NCBI RefSeq assembly: GCF_041261205.1
Contig: NZ_JBGCCH010000003.1
Location: 434,001 to 498,000, forward strand
DNA length: 64,000 bases
From: Catenulispora sp. MAP5-51
Lineage (GTDB): Bacteria > Actinomycetota > Actinomycetes > Streptomycetales > Catenulisporaceae
Direction of reading: 5' to 3'
The translations under genes were made by a program, and so were the position numbers. Below are positions 4,200-48,494 of this stretch, one piece after another. The number at the start of each line of letters is the position of its first letter. The stretch's first letter is position 1. Below the pieces are notes generated by a model. The model did no database searches and had not been told where the DNA came from. It saw only the letters and a program-made list of their open reading frames with translations.

Positions 4200-5276
4200 A
4201 TGGCGGCGGACGCAGCGGTCGGCCGCACCGAGTTCGCAGCACTCGGCGGACTCGCGGTCGTCCTGACCACGGACCCCGACGCCGTCGGACCGGCGACCGA
4301 GGCGGTCCGGGCCGAGGTCGAGGCGATCGACCTGGCCTGCAGCCGCTTTCGCGACGACTCCGAGCTGTCCCGGGTCAATGCCCGAGCGGGGGAGTACGTC
4401 GAAGTCGGCCCGTTGTTCGCCGAGGCGTTGAGCGCCGCGCTCTGGGCGGCCCGGGCCACCGACGGCGACGTGGACCCGACCTGCGGCGCCTCGATGCGGG
4501 CCCTCGGCTACGACAGGGACTTCGCGGAGCTCGCGACCGCGCCCGTGCGACCGGCGGTGCCCCGGCCCGGGGCCGGATGGCGCGCCGTCGACTGGGACGA
4601 GGCGCGGTCCGCGGTCCGGATCCCGGTCGGGACCGCGCTGGATTTCGGCGCCACCGCGAAGGCGCTGGCCGCCGATCGCGCCGCCGGACGCGCGGCCACC
4701 GTGACCGGCAGCGGCGTCCTGGTGAGCCTGAGCGGGGACATCGCGGTGTGCGGACCGGCGCCCGAGGGCGGCTGGCGCGTCCGGGTCACCGAGGACCACC
4801 GCAGCGGCGACGACCTCCCCGGCCAGACCGTCGTCGTCACCGAGGGCGGGCTGGCCACGTCGAGCACCGTGGTGCGGGCCTGGCAGGTCTGGTCCGACGA
4901 GACGGTGCCGCGGCGCGTCACGGTCCACCACATCGTCGACCCGCGCACCGGCAGGCCCACCGACGGCGCCTGGCGCACCGTCTCGGTCGCCGCGGCCACC
5001 TGCCTGGACGCCAACGTCGCGGCCACCGCCGCCATCGTGCGCGGCCACGCCGCCGCGCGCTGGCTCGCCGGGCTGAGCCTGCCCGCGCGCCTGGTGCACA
5101 CCGACGGTTCGGCGGTGACGGTCGGCGGCTGGCCGGCCGACCCGGACAGCCCGGACGGCCCTGGCAGCCCTGGCAGCGCGGGCACCGGCATTCCCGCCGT
5201 CAGCGCCCTGCCGAAGCTCGGCGTCGCGACCGCCTCGCGTCCGTCTCCGCATCGTCTCCCCGGCAGCCGGCCATGA
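4200..5276 (+). CDS. apbE: FAD:protein FMN transferase, ApbE family
   Basis: 358 residues. ApbE enzymes attach FMN covalently to Thr/Ser of extracytoplasmic redox proteins, using FAD and Mg2+. Visible signatures are DFGATAKALAADRA (nucleotide-binding segment), HIVDPRTGRP, and CLDANVAATAA near the C-terminus. No signal peptide is evident, so it may act in the cytoplasm or be exported another way. The stop overlaps the start of the next gene by ATGA. The residues after about 320 are a Pro/Ser/Gly-rich tail. No protein with a recognisable FMN-binding domain is encoded nearby, so its substrate is not identified. Confidence 0.88.
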   Translation: MAADAAVGRTEFAALGGLAVVLTTDPDAVGPATEAVRAEVEAIDLACSRFRDDSELSRVNARAGEYVEVGPLFAEALSAALWAARATDGDVDPTCGASMRALGYDRDFAELATAPVRPAVPRPGAGWRAVDWDEARSAVRIPVGTALDFGATAKALAADRAAGRAATVTGSGVLVSLSGDIAVCGPAPEGGWRVRVTEDHRSGDDLPGQTVVVTEGGLATSSTVVRAWQVWSDETVPRRVTVHHIVDPRTGRPTDGAWRTVSVAAATCLDANVAATAAIVRGHAAARWLAGLSLPARLVHTDGSAVTVGGWPADPDSPDGPGSPGSAGTGIPAVSALPKLGVATASRPSPHRLPGSRP

Positions 5277-44550: not shown

Positions 44551-45810
44551 GTGACCATGCAGCCCTGGTTCGCCGACGCCAAGCTCGGCATCTTCGTCCA
44601 CTGGGGGATCTACGCCGTCAACGGCATCCCGGAGTCCTGGTCGTTCTACAACGGCGAGATCACCTACGAGAACTACATGAAGCAGCTCGACGGGTTCACC
44701 GCGAGCGCTTACGACGCGGGGGAATGGGCCCGCCTGTTCAAGGCGGCCGGCGCGCGCTACGCGGTGCTGACGTCCAAGCACCACGACGGCGTCGCCCTGT
44801 GGGAGACGGCCGAGAACGATCTGAACGTGGTGAAGCGGACGCCGGCCGGCCGCGACCTGCTGGCGCCGTACGCGCAGGCGATGCGCGACGCGGGGCTGAA
44901 GGTGGGACTGTACTTCTCGCACCTGGACTGGTCGCACCCCGACTACCCGTTCCACTCGCGGGAGGAGTTCGAGAGCGGCGGGGCGGCCGAGGGTGCCGAC
45001 GTTGCCGACGTTGCCGAGGACACGCAGGCGTGGGAACGCTTCCTGAAGTTCCACCGCGCGCAGCTGAAGGAGATCGTCGAGGGCTACCAGCCGGATCTGC
45101 TGTGGTTCGACGGGGACTGGGAGCGTCCCGAGGAGCGTTGGCGCATGGCCGAGCTGCGGGAGCAGCTGACGGCGATGAAGGCGGACCTGGTCTTCAACTC
45201 CCGCCTACTGGGCCACGGCGACTACGCGACCCCCGAGCAGGGCGCGCCGATCACGCCGCCGGAGGGGCCGTGGGAGCTGTGCTACACGGTGAACAACTCC
45301 TGGGGCTTCCAGCGCAACGATCACGATCACAAGCCGATCAGCCTCCTGGTGCGCACCTTCGTCGAGACCATCGCCGGCGGCGGCAACCTGCTCCTGGACG
45401 TAGGCCCCCGCGCCGACGGCTCGATCCCGTCGGAGCAGGCCTCGCGCCTGGAGGCACTCGGCCGTTGGATCGCCCGCAACGAACCGGCGGTCTTCGGCAC
45501 GGTCCGCGGCATCCCCGCCGGACACGTCCACGCCCCGACAACCGTGTCGGCGGACCGGCGCACGCTGTACGTGTTCTGCTACGACCCCCCGCGCGACCCG
45601 GTGACGATCAACGGCCTGACGAGCAAGGTCAAGCGGATCACGGCCCTGTCGACCGGCGAGCAGCTGACGCACCGACGGTACGGCGGCTTCGACCCGGTGC
45701 CGGGCGTGCTGGCGATCGATGCGCCGAGCGTCGCGGATCCGGTGGTGACGGTGCTGGCGGTCGAGGTGGAGGGGGAGGTGGAGTTGTATCGGGGGGAGGG
45801 GCGGAGCTGA
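44551..45810 (+). CDS. Alpha-L-fucosidase, GH29 family
   Basis: 419 residues (ATG 44557 is an alternative start). WFADAKLGIFVHWGIYAVNGIPESW at the start, YAVLTSKHHDGVALW, and LLWFDGDW carrying the nucleophile Asp are clear GH29 marks. NNSWGFQRND and a C-terminal beta domain complete it. No signal peptide, so it acts on fucosylated oligosaccharides taken into the cell. Regulated probably by the divergent AraC protein. Slightly shorter than many GH29 enzymes. Confidence 0.92.
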   Translation: MTMQPWFADAKLGIFVHWGIYAVNGIPESWSFYNGEITYENYMKQLDGFTASAYDAGEWARLFKAAGARYAVLTSKHHDGVALWETAENDLNVVKRTPAGRDLLAPYAQAMRDAGLKVGLYFSHLDWSHPDYPFHSREEFESGGAAEGADVADVAEDTQAWERFLKFHRAQLKEIVEGYQPDLLWFDGDWERPEERWRMAELREQLTAMKADLVFNSRLLGHGDYATPEQGAPITPPEGPWELCYTVNNSWGFQRNDHDHKPISLLVRTFVETIAGGGNLLLDVGPRADGSIPSEQASRLEALGRWIARNEPAVFGTVRGIPAGHVHAPTTVSADRRTLYVFCYDPPRDPVTINGLTSKVKRITALSTGEQLTHRRYGGFDPVPGVLAIDAPSVADPVVTVLAVEVEGEVELYRGEGRS

Positions 45811-45891
45811 GGGGGCGGGGGTGTGGTTGGCTGGGCTGGGCTGGGCTGGTTGCGGTTTTGTTTGCGGGTTGACAGGCACAGGCGCTTCTTG

Positions 45892-46164
45892 ACGGCTTCG
45901 CGTACGGTTTGCGGGATCCGCTGGTGGCGCGGCTCGGGGTGGGTGACGTCGTGTGTGGGCGGCGGTGGTGTGGGTAGGTGGTCGGGTCTACTGCCACAGC
46001 CAAGAGCAAGAGCGACAGTCAAGGCAAGGTCAAGGGCTTACAGGCGCCTCCGGCGGCGCCTGCGCGGCGAGCGGCCTCGCTCCGGGGAGTGGGGGGCCGC
46101 GCTGCTGGGCGGCGGACGCTGCTTGTGGTCGCCTTCGTCCCGGATTCCCCGTCGCATCGTCGCC
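45892..46164 (+). repeat. Left arm of the nested palindrome
   Basis: 273 bases, first 210 exactly inverted relative to 46587-46796. The arm itself contains small hairpins, CAGGCGCC/GGCGCCTG near 46041-46062 and GAGCG/CGCTC near 46069-46081, which resemble terminator stems. Confidence 0.9.
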
Positions 46165-46291
46165 TTACGGAAGCAGGCCGGTCCGGTGGTATCAAGTCGG
46201 ATCGCCCAGCTGGTGGCCGGGTATCAGCGACTTGACACAACCGGCCCGGCCTGCTTGGCTTCGCCCGCCGACGCGACGGGGAATCCGGGAC
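46137..46291. repeat. Inner hairpin A
   Basis: Imperfect inverted repeat of about 155 bases, opening with GTCCCGGATTCCCCGTCGC (46137-46155) and closing with its reverse complement (46273-46291). AAGCAGGCCGG and TCAAGTCG also pair within it. Confidence 0.85.
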
Positions 46292-46390
46292 AAACCCACC
46301 TGTGGGAAGAGTTCCCGCGCCTTGTGCACGCACCGCCTGGCCGCCGCTGTGCCTCACCGAGTGGACCGAGTCCACACCACAGGCGGGGGT

Positions 46391-46552
46391 TGTCCCGGAT
46401 TCCCCGTCGCTTCGGCGGTGCTTGCACAACCATCCCGGACTGGGCGGTGTCAAGCCGAACGAAACCGGTGGCCAGCAACAGCGATCCGGCTTGACACCGC
46501 CCAGGCCGGGATGGTTCCCTCCGGGCGACGAAGCGACGGGGAATCCGGGACA
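46391..46552. repeat. Inner hairpin B
   Basis: A second inverted repeat of about 160 bases with the same 19-base ends (46392-46410 and 46533-46551). Inner pairing segments are ACCATCCCGG and GGCGGTGTCAAGCCG, a relative but not a copy of hairpin A. Confidence 0.85.
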
Positions 46553-46796
46553 CAGGCGACCACAAGCAACAACCGCCGCCCAACTACGCGGCCCCCCACT
46601 CCCCGGAGCGAGGCCGCTCGCCGCGCAGGCGCCGCCGGAGGCGCCTGTAAGCCCTTGACCTTGCCTTGACTGTCGCTCTTGCTCTTGGCTGTGGCAGTAG
46701 ACCCGACCACCTACCCACACCACCGCCGCCCACACACGACGTCACCCACCCCGAGCCGCGCCACCAGCGGATCCCGCAAACCGTACGCGAAGCCGT
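46524..46796 (-). repeat. Right arm of the nested palindrome
   Basis: Inverted partner of 45892-46164. The last 210 bases (46587-46796) are identical to the left arm. Confidence 0.9.
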
Positions 46797-46888
46797 AAAA
46801 ATAGCCTGTAAACCCACACACCAGCTGCACTCACACGAAGAACCGACCCACGCCTAAGCCACAGGCCCCGGTTTGGCCCCGAACGCCA

Positions 46889-46970: not shown

Positions 46971-48494
46971 TCAGCAGCCGCGGACCCCGGGGCCGGCGTA
47001 AGCGCCGCGGTTCGGTGCGCCCGGCGGGATCGGGCTGCCGAAGTAGTCCTGGCCGCCGTTGTTCGCGATGGGGAGTCCGTCGGCCAGGGCGGGTGACTTG
47101 GTGCACAGTCGTTCGCCGCGCGGGCCTGTGCCGCCTGCGACCAGCAGTGGGTTCGTCGTCAGCGTTCCCGTGCCCGGTGCCGTTGTGGTGTTGTAGAAGG
47201 TGTTGTTCGTCAGCTGGTAGCTCGTCGCCGGGGACAGGGCGAAGGTCGCGTCGGAGGGGGCGCCGGCGTTCACGACCACGTTGTTCGTGAACTGCACGTT
47301 CCGGGCTGTGCTGTCGTTGTTCTCGCGGAGCACGGCCATGGCGGCGCCGGGCTTCACGTAGATCGTGTTGTTGTAGACCTGGACCGGGCCGGAGGGGCCG
47401 GAGCAGTTCTCGATGCCTCGGTAGCTGTCGTTCTGGCTGATGTTGTAGCGGATCACCGAGTTGCGGACGTAGCCGTCGGTGGTGCCGCAGATGAGGGCGA
47501 AGCCGCCGTCGTTGTCGTGGCTGTAGTTGTACTGGTAGACGATCGTGTCGGTGAAGTCGTCGATGTCGTAGGCCATCGAGTCTTGGTGGCCGTGGCCGCC
47601 GGAGACTTCGTTGTACTGGAACGTCACGTGGTCGGAGTCCCAGGGCCAGATGCCGGCGTTGTAGCCGTGCGAGGTGACGTTGAAGCCGGCCAGGGTGTTG
47701 TGGTCGACCAGGCCGCCGGAGGTCTGCTCGACCACGATGCCGTCGCCGCCGGTCCGGGACAGGGTGTTGCCCTGGATCAGGACGTGGGTGAACGGGTGTT
47801 CCTGCAGCCCTTCGTACTGGGCCCAGGACGAGGCGGTGACGATACCTTCGCGGTTCACGCGGGTCAGTGTGTTGTCGGTGATGCGTACGTCGTCGAACCA
47901 GGTCGGGACGCTGGTCCCGTGCACGCTCACGACGATCCCGTCGCTGCCGTCGGCGTCCTTCGTGTCGTCCCCGAGCACGTCGTGCACGGTCACGCCGCTG
48001 ATCACGATGTGCGACAGCTTGCCGGCGTCCTGGGCGTCCACGTGGATGCCGCGGCGGTTGGTGCCGGGGTTCGCCGCGTTGGTCACGTCCAGGTGGTGGA
48101 TCTCGAAGTACTGCTGGTTGCGGAGCGACACTGTCTCGGTCGCGCCGTTGCCGTCGATCCGCGGGAGGGGCCGGTCGGCTGTGCCGTAGGCGTCCACCAC
48201 GATGTCCGAGCCCGCGATGCCGGAGCCCTGTGGTGCCAGGGTGCCGATGCACGTGGTTCCGCGGGCGAACAGGATGTGGTCGCCGGGGGAGAAGGCCGGC
48301 TTGTTCACGTCCGCCAGCGAGGTCCACGGATGCGCGGCCGAGCCGTTGCCGTCGTGGGTCCGTGAGCAGTCGACGTAGGAGAAGGTGCCGGTCTGGGGCC
48401 CGATGCCGTGCGCGTGGGCCGGCGCGGCGCCCAGGGCCAGAGCAGCGGCCGCCACGGCTCCCACGACAGTGCGGCGGGCGGTGAGGTGTGCCAT
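46971..48494 (-). CDS. Secreted right-handed parallel beta-helix protein
   Basis: 507 residues from ATG 48494 (GAGAGGAA just upstream). Signal peptide ending AHA, then a pectate-lyase-like beta-helix with many short N-rich turns (ITDNTLTRV, IQGNTLSRTGGDGIVVE, VDHNTLAGFN, YNNTIYV), typical of polysaccharide lyases or carbohydrate-binding helices. Cys residues near both ends may form disulfides. In a carbohydrate island next to a sugar ABC operon, it probably acts on an extracellular glycan; the catalytic residues are not obvious. Confidence 0.85.
   Translation of the reverse strand: MAHLTARRTVVGAVAAAALALGAAPAHAHGIGPQTGTFSYVDCSRTHDGNGSAAHPWTSLADVNKPAFSPGDHILFARGTTCIGTLAPQGSGIAGSDIVVDAYGTADRPLPRIDGNGATETVSLRNQQYFEIHHLDVTNAANPGTNRRGIHVDAQDAGKLSHIVISGVTVHDVLGDDTKDADGSDGIVVSVHGTSVPTWFDDVRITDNTLTRVNREGIVTASSWAQYEGLQEHPFTHVLIQGNTLSRTGGDGIVVEQTSGGLVDHNTLAGFNVTSHGYNAGIWPWDSDHVTFQYNEVSGGHGHQDSMAYDIDDFTDTIVYQYNYSHDNDGGFALICGTTDGYVRNSVIRYNISQNDSYRGIENCSGPSGPVQVYNNTIYVKPGAAMAVLRENNDSTARNVQFTNNVVVNAGAPSDATFALSPATSYQLTNNTFYNTTTAPGTGTLTTNPLLVAGGTGPRGERLCTKSPALADGLPIANNGGQDYFGSPIPPGAPNRGAYAGPGVRGC

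Follow-up and report, generated by a model that had tools for sequence, protein, structure and literature searches.

A palindromic repeat of Catenulispora with ISL3-type ends and two outward-facing modules that appear to be selected for folding on one strand

What kind of sequence is a palindrome of about one kilobase that lies between two converging genes and is bounded and filled by inverted repeats? The question is raised by a locus of Catenulispora sp. MAP5-51, which we analyzed within a window of 64,000 nucleotides (NZ_JBGCCH010000003.1, positions 434,001 to 498,000; coordinates below count from the first base of this window). The initial annotation had offered a MITE-like element, a REPIN-like array, a recombination site, or a switchable structured RNA as candidates. 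Our results make it probable that the locus is an old non-autonomous element of the ISL3 family, approximately 1.05 kb in length and widespread in Catenulispora, and that it contains two outward-facing modules that fold as single strands, probably as RNA.

The window copy extends from about 45811 to 46869, its approximate ends being set by homology with the most similar copies (343 and 347 bases beyond the outer 20-mers). It occupies the gap of a convergent gene pair, with an alpha-L-fucosidase gene on the left (44551-45810, plus strand; PF01120) and the gene of a right-handed beta-helix protein on the right (46971-48494, minus strand; PF13229). The left end is decayed and adjoins the fucosidase stop codon, while the right terminal inverted repeat (46847..46869, minus strand) is also decayed, with at most 5 mismatches to a 23-base consensus (L079:5048-5070). 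None of the five open frames tested inside the copy had a Pfam match at an E value of 0.1. The identical 210-base outer arms described in the initial annotation were recovered as an exact inverted match (45892..46101, plus; 46587..46796, minus), and the full arms are 276 nt long and 96% complementary. Between them lie a left hairpin module (46136..46292), which folds on the minus strand as its sense strand and has one non-standard stem pair, and a right module (46391..46552), which folds on the plus strand as its sense strand and has no broken stem pairs. Both modules point outward from a 98-bp centre (46293..46390). Their base stems are built from four copies of a 20-mer in alternating orientation, at 46136..46155 (plus), 46273..46292 (minus), 46391..46410 (plus), and 46533..46552 (minus); these had been reported as 19-mers at positions correct to within one base. 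Two mutually exclusive folds of the whole block had also been proposed, which holds only in part. The outer arms and the upper stems pair within themselves and, on our reading of the pairing, competition is mainly among the four 20-mers, which can join as 1-2/3-4 or as 1-4/2-3. The RNA folding energy of the window palindrome was -898 kcal/mol, compared with -452 ± 9 kcal/mol for 20 shuffles. In this and other copies, small units built around CTTGAC and GTCAAG recur in the outer arms (window 45960-46035 and 46650-46720); they could be protein sites or products of slippage.

The locus belongs to a family. A genome-wide search with the repeat, which had been suggested as a check, returned 147 matches to the 20-mer (at most three mismatches) compared with none for a reversed control, and excluded the possibility of a single-copy sequence without relatives. 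A 950-bp query gave 89 matches in the same genome, many of which represent one place on both strands; because the best 40 of 301 candidates were scored, we give the copy number as about 40. Among these copies, 27 were complete, with their 20-mers spaced 137/118/142, give or take a few bases, or in the mirrored order, and four of the 27 had a longer centre. Copies with clear ends (L041, L043, L046, and L054) measured 1028-1071 bp, and the GC content of the element was 68.4%. All nine same-genus relatives that we searched contained a match. The full layout recurred in G001, G004, G006, and G008, and the loci read from G002, G003, G005, G007, and G009 were partial. An exact pattern of the module retrieved 11 stretches, all from Catenulispora rubra, from a collection that may lack close records of the window's genome. 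Contig ends of the window's genome often fell within or next to copies. An assembly artefact was rejected as the sole cause, since a relative assembled as one contig of 10.47 Mb carries the same family, and the family itself is thus no artefact. For the window copy, arm-to-arm identity was at the top of the range found among the 27 complete copies (65-96%); its identical arms fit recent conversion and possibly, in a draft assembly, collapse. A phage or plasmid origin was likewise rejected, given that the element had no match in phage and plasmid collections and the module pattern had 0 matches in viral contigs. A literature search, limited to bibliographic entries, found nothing on the palindromic element or on ISL3 elements that choose terminators.

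The ends of the copies point to the source of their mobility. When the arms were aligned outward, many shared a sharp common end, GTCAGGGGCGCC with close variants, and the inward end pattern (at most three mismatches) occurred 59 times compared with once in the control. These ends are shared with an autonomous ISL3 insertion sequence (L107), whose two ends differ by 2 and 4 mismatches from the 23-base family pattern GGCGCYCCTGRCYTNTGTGTGGG. The intact element lies in the relative G004, is 1403 bp long, and has an open frame of 435 aa. The encoded transposase is of the ISL3 type (NF033550, 266.7 bits against a cut-off of 180; PF01610, 239.2 bits), and the element is bounded by the duplication CATTTTTC immediately 3' of a strong terminator hairpin. 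In the window's genome only a remnant of this partner was found, which makes present-day activity doubtful there; at C1:523784, a solo end continues directly into a sequence for the C-terminal portion of an ISL3-family transposase, the frame of which stops inside the end repeat. The same genome contains another, intact-looking ISL3-family element (L100:1408-2810; G000 C34) with ends GGCTCTTCGCTCGTGTTTGTGGG and a relative in G001 (L109). This element was rejected as the partner of the palindromes because its ends differ (GGCTCTTCGCTCG).

Target duplications were documented at 18 sites, where 9 were perfect (8/8), 5 matched at 7/8, and 4 at 6/8. The perfect duplications flank 8 palindromic copies and the insertion sequence of G004. 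This set comprises 17 of 76 loci with a duplication of at least 6/8, one-base offsets to either side being allowed, along with the insertion sequence; the right end of L051 was placed within the script. Three loci with 6/8 (L065, L117, and L121) were dropped by judgment as their ends looked misplaced, and no uniform rule was applied, since 3 or 4 end mismatches were present at some of the retained sites too. The remaining loci were left out for decayed or cut ends or for poorer duplications. The initial annotation saw no obvious target duplication, which is correct for the window copy with its decayed ends and incorrect for the family. Furthermore, some sites are empty in relatives. The joined flanks of L043 were found without the 1-kb insertion in G008, G004, and G009, where the match was close in G008 but had more gaps within the intergenic DNA of G004 and G009. 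The joined flanks of L046 were empty in G001 and G006, with the terminator of the site intact. Taken together, the ISL3 ends, 8-bp duplications, and empty sites suggest that the palindrome is best read as a non-autonomous derivative of an ISL3 element, which would be mobilized in trans. The proposal of a MITE-like element was therefore correct in kind: the copies have the ends of an autonomous insertion sequence and target duplications, number in the dozens, and are without a recognizable gene.

Two further observations concern sites and elements of this type. The L043 site (4986-5100) varied between relatives (L181, L183, L186, L187, L192, and L188): between several hundred and roughly 1150 bases of other DNA were present in G001, G002, and G005, and contigs broke there in G006. 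In addition, one-arm or very short elements with the same type of end were seen at L084:5967-5989, L088:7500-7522, L086:1299-1551, and L096:7263-7454, with sizes by eye of roughly 70, 50, 250, and 200 bp, respectively. They are likely to be further non-autonomous derivatives of the same insertion sequence.

Insertion favored a particular kind of site. Three consecutive T or A were present in 15 of the 18 duplications, compared with 3.2% of 8-mers drawn at random from these loci in full, with their coding DNA, so that an intergenic background would exceed this value. Terminators were rejected as a general target. The hairpin at the site was among the strongest 5% of local controls in just 4 of 18 cases (folding energy; Wilcoxon p = 0.043), and the rule is better phrased as a T-rich tract near a gene end than as a terminator alone. 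Neighboring genes were called with our own codon-usage gene caller. For the 27 copies with both neighbors called, 13 gaps were convergent, 12 tandem, and 2 divergent, compared with 30, 105, and 61, respectively, among 196 background gaps. The excess of convergent gaps (13/27 vs 30/196, p = 2.5e-4) and deficit of divergent ones (p = 0.011) agree with a T-rich target and with tolerated insertion behind genes.

What distinguishes the element is its interior. The right module and the reverse complement of the left one are paralogs, each approximately 160 nt in length and facing outward. Their fold rises from a base stem of 20 bp through a four-way junction, which bears two mini-hairpins, into a long upper stem capped by an open loop. 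A tag, TCGGCGG, marked the outward-reading side in 92/92 modules from 46 complete elements in five genomes, and with one mismatch it was also present at the opposite end of 3 modules. In a set of 24 modules that were at most 93% alike, 98.8% of the positions in 52 pairs were standard compared with 91.2% in shuffles, and 17 pairs had changed on both sides compared with 10.3 in shuffles, while the count of further pair types was not clearly above shuffles in this set (44 of 500). When the pairing was slid by 1-3 columns, at most 46.3% remained paired. The two mini-hairpins, which stand at the foot of the upper stem and complete the junction, were both kept in 24/24 modules. Across 90 unique modules, the side hairpins contained 558 Watson-Crick pairs and 0 wobble pairs, counted from the base to the first non-pair. 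Their loops were 2-4 bases long, with 35 TT and 39 GNA loops on the left (19 GTA, 15 GAA, and 5 GCA). A known RNA family was rejected for the module: no Rfam family reached its gathering threshold, with only tRNAs found in the window and a best other score of 28.5 bits against a threshold of 100.

Is the fold itself maintained, or is pairing just a by-product of the palindrome? On a tree of the 90 unique modules, standard pairs changed to G·T 53 times and to A·C 2 times, whereas unpaired columns of the same modules showed 28 C>T and 31 G>A changes (asymmetry, Fisher p = 1.8e-9). These counts are events inferred on one tree, and conversion may inflate them but should not create the asymmetry. 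In the 24-module set, 14 column pairs contained G·T and 2 contained A·C. Splitting the modules in half and counting stem mismatches in the outward sense, a cruder approach, gave a less marked asymmetry, 241 G·T vs 49 A·C, and the longer, A-type modules of G006 taken by themselves were nearly even (15 vs 12). If pairing were kept only by gene conversion or template switching, with a fold that is not itself selected, then a double-stranded palindrome should have about as many G·T as A·C mismatches. The outer arms behave in this way, with 390 G·T and 407 A·C mismatches, though they are a weak control since opposite outward biases would cancel there. The arms also look as though they had been exchanged between copies: left-left, left-right, and right-right similarities are alike, and an arm's own partner was its best match in only 6 of 27 copies. 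Conversion or template switching may well explain the outer arms. For the modules, such an account is very unlikely, because conversion is strand-blind and, like a double-stranded cruciform, fails to predict 53 vs 2 next to unbiased unpaired sites. Instead, the asymmetry strongly supports the view that the outward strand of each module is selected to fold as a single strand, be it RNA or single-stranded DNA. The suggestion of a structured RNA that switches accordingly gains support in its folding half, that is, for folding of each module on one strand, and in that half alone.

Which nucleic acid folds is a separate matter. The modules could act as single-stranded DNA, with hairpins that form during resection of the 5' strand or at the replication fork, and several features suit such a role. 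A DDE transposase joins the 3' end of the outward sense strand to its target, strand-specific tolerance of G·T fits single-stranded DNA as well as RNA, and a consensus scan for sigma-70 types found no sigma-70-like promoter in the element. Short TT and GNA loops are common, and among 36 GNNA loops of the right side hairpin, 13 violate the GNRA rule of RNA; DNA loops of the GNA and GNNA types are exceptionally stable. However, the other 23 loops conform to GNRA, and these loops and the common G-CUUG-C loop, both RNA favorites, suit RNA as well. Moreover, transcription of comparable repeats is ordinary: the BOX repeats of pneumococcus are reported to appear in transcripts, where they extend genes on the 5' and 3' sides (PMC3049150). 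On balance, we regard single-stranded DNA in transposition as the main rival but unlikely, and the folded form is probably RNA. Read-through from neighboring genes received no support as its source. In 10 one-direction contexts (10 of the 12 tandem ones, the remaining two being incomplete copies), broken pairs were equally frequent in the proximal and distal modules, 9 vs 9.

The interior is also plastic. Relative to the modules, the centre was found in one orientation in 11 copies and in the other in 16 of the 27, which indicates that inner segments have been inverted or exchanged. In L050, L061, and L070, a third module type takes the place of one of the usual pair, and one module was cleanly lost from L171. 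These rearrangements are what might be expected of a shufflon-like cassette with site-specific inversion at the 20-mers. Yet a free shufflon would flip the modules too, and the tag shows them facing outward without exception. In addition, no recombinase was found among the five open frames of the window copy or in its two flanking genes. We hold a dedicated cassette to be highly improbable. The early idea of a recombination site is partly right, in that the centre occurs in both orientations, for which ordinary recombination between inverted repeats would suffice. With our preferred reading of an ISL3-type derivative with selected modules, the inverted arms and 20-mers would let segments flip, swap, or drop out through recombination or slippage. 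The centre received insertions as well: an IS256-family element with a 451-aa transposase is nested in the centre of one palindromic copy (L067:4420-6069; G000 C9), and inserts of about 215 bp with GGTGTAAG...CTTACACC-like ends lie within the 98-bp centre of L064, L065, and L068. With 4 of 27 centres interrupted, the centre resembles an insertion hotspot.

The element shares traits with several known systems. Within the ISL3 family (the IS204/IS1001/IS1096/IS1165 group), the intact Catenulispora element has nearly identical terminal repeats and likewise makes an 8-bp duplication, in the one G004 copy also in a T-rich target. Unlike that insertion sequence, the palindrome has no transposase gene, and arms of up to about 340 bp extend its ends into a single long palindrome; the partner element (L133), in turn, yielded no match to the module 20-mers. 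Bacterial MITEs are similarly gene-less and intergenic, with terminal inverted repeats, target duplications, and dozens of copies. They measure a few hundred base pairs, whereas the palindrome has about 1.05 kb and a nested structure with two conserved structured modules. Its GC content also departs from the AT-rich composition described as typical of MITEs (PMC10969869). The BOX, RUP, and SPRITE repeats of pneumococcus are described as dispersed, folded, and enriched between convergent genes, with BOX being modular (PMC3049150), and dispersal, folding, and convergent enrichment are shared by the Catenulispora element. The systems differ in host and size, in the identification here of a partner family by its ends, and in the measurement of one-strand selection. 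In REPIN/RAYT systems, hairpins occur as extragenic inverted pairs, and the Catenulispora element has inverted hairpin pairs and an extragenic position in common with them. Nevertheless, a REPIN-like array is disfavored: the RAYT transposase acts on REP pairs of about 100 nt, whereas the 20-mers described here are the base stems of 160-nt modules within an element that has DDE-type, ISL3 ends.

These findings can be assembled into a mechanism. An ISL3 transposase supplied in trans would recognize the ends of the element, which would insert with an 8-bp duplication into T-rich tracts, some of them intrinsic terminators and often between convergent genes. Selection would keep each module as a folded single strand, for which pair conservation and strand-specific G·T tolerance provide support. 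RNA would arise when transcription crosses the element along the outward direction of a module, and by forming short RNAs or stable structures at the 3' ends of genes it might render insertions harmless to neighbors. Our best guess is that the fold stabilizes or ends transcripts at gene ends. Gene-less bacterial repeats are mostly known from their sequence, and the importance of their folds is often open. What is new here is the inside of the element, where two paralogous outward modules are selected for folding on one strand. With 90 distinct modules, selection on the fold can be tested directly, which makes the function of such a repeat, as RNA or single-stranded DNA, accessible to experiment. 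Our results also connect the repeats with a named family of transposases and with a target preference for T-rich tracts close to gene ends, and the covariance model of the module is a means to find more.

When this model was applied to 296 genomes from the class, with the best 10 candidates scored per genome and with rough E-values, matches were confined to two genomes, the window's own and one from another family. Within that other family, 3 of 40 genomes matched, each from a different genus and with the module as single hairpins (best 74 candidates scored, E-values again rough). Those of G142 and G345 have two side hairpins, as in Catenulispora, and common descent of the modules in both families is likely. 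In G338, the two strands scored nearly equally (72.4/67.2, 63.6/62.7, and 45.2/45.2), so that part of the match may reflect general palindromic character. A tentative proposal, which we rate as somewhat doubtful, is that the module belongs to an unrecognized class of four-way-junction hairpins of about 160 nt in Actinobacteria, solo elsewhere and doubled outward in the ISL3 element of Catenulispora, with the selected strand being the transferred strand, and that it acts in mobility or at gene 3' ends as RNA or single-stranded DNA. Single module-like hairpins at L179 (524-1651) and L177 of G338 have right flanks that are similar by eye. At L179, a gene for an IS110-family (RNA-guided) transposase (PF02371 above its cut-off, the NCBIfam IS110 model below) ends about 80 bases upstream of the hairpin, so that the hairpins may be a target or a part of an IS110 element.
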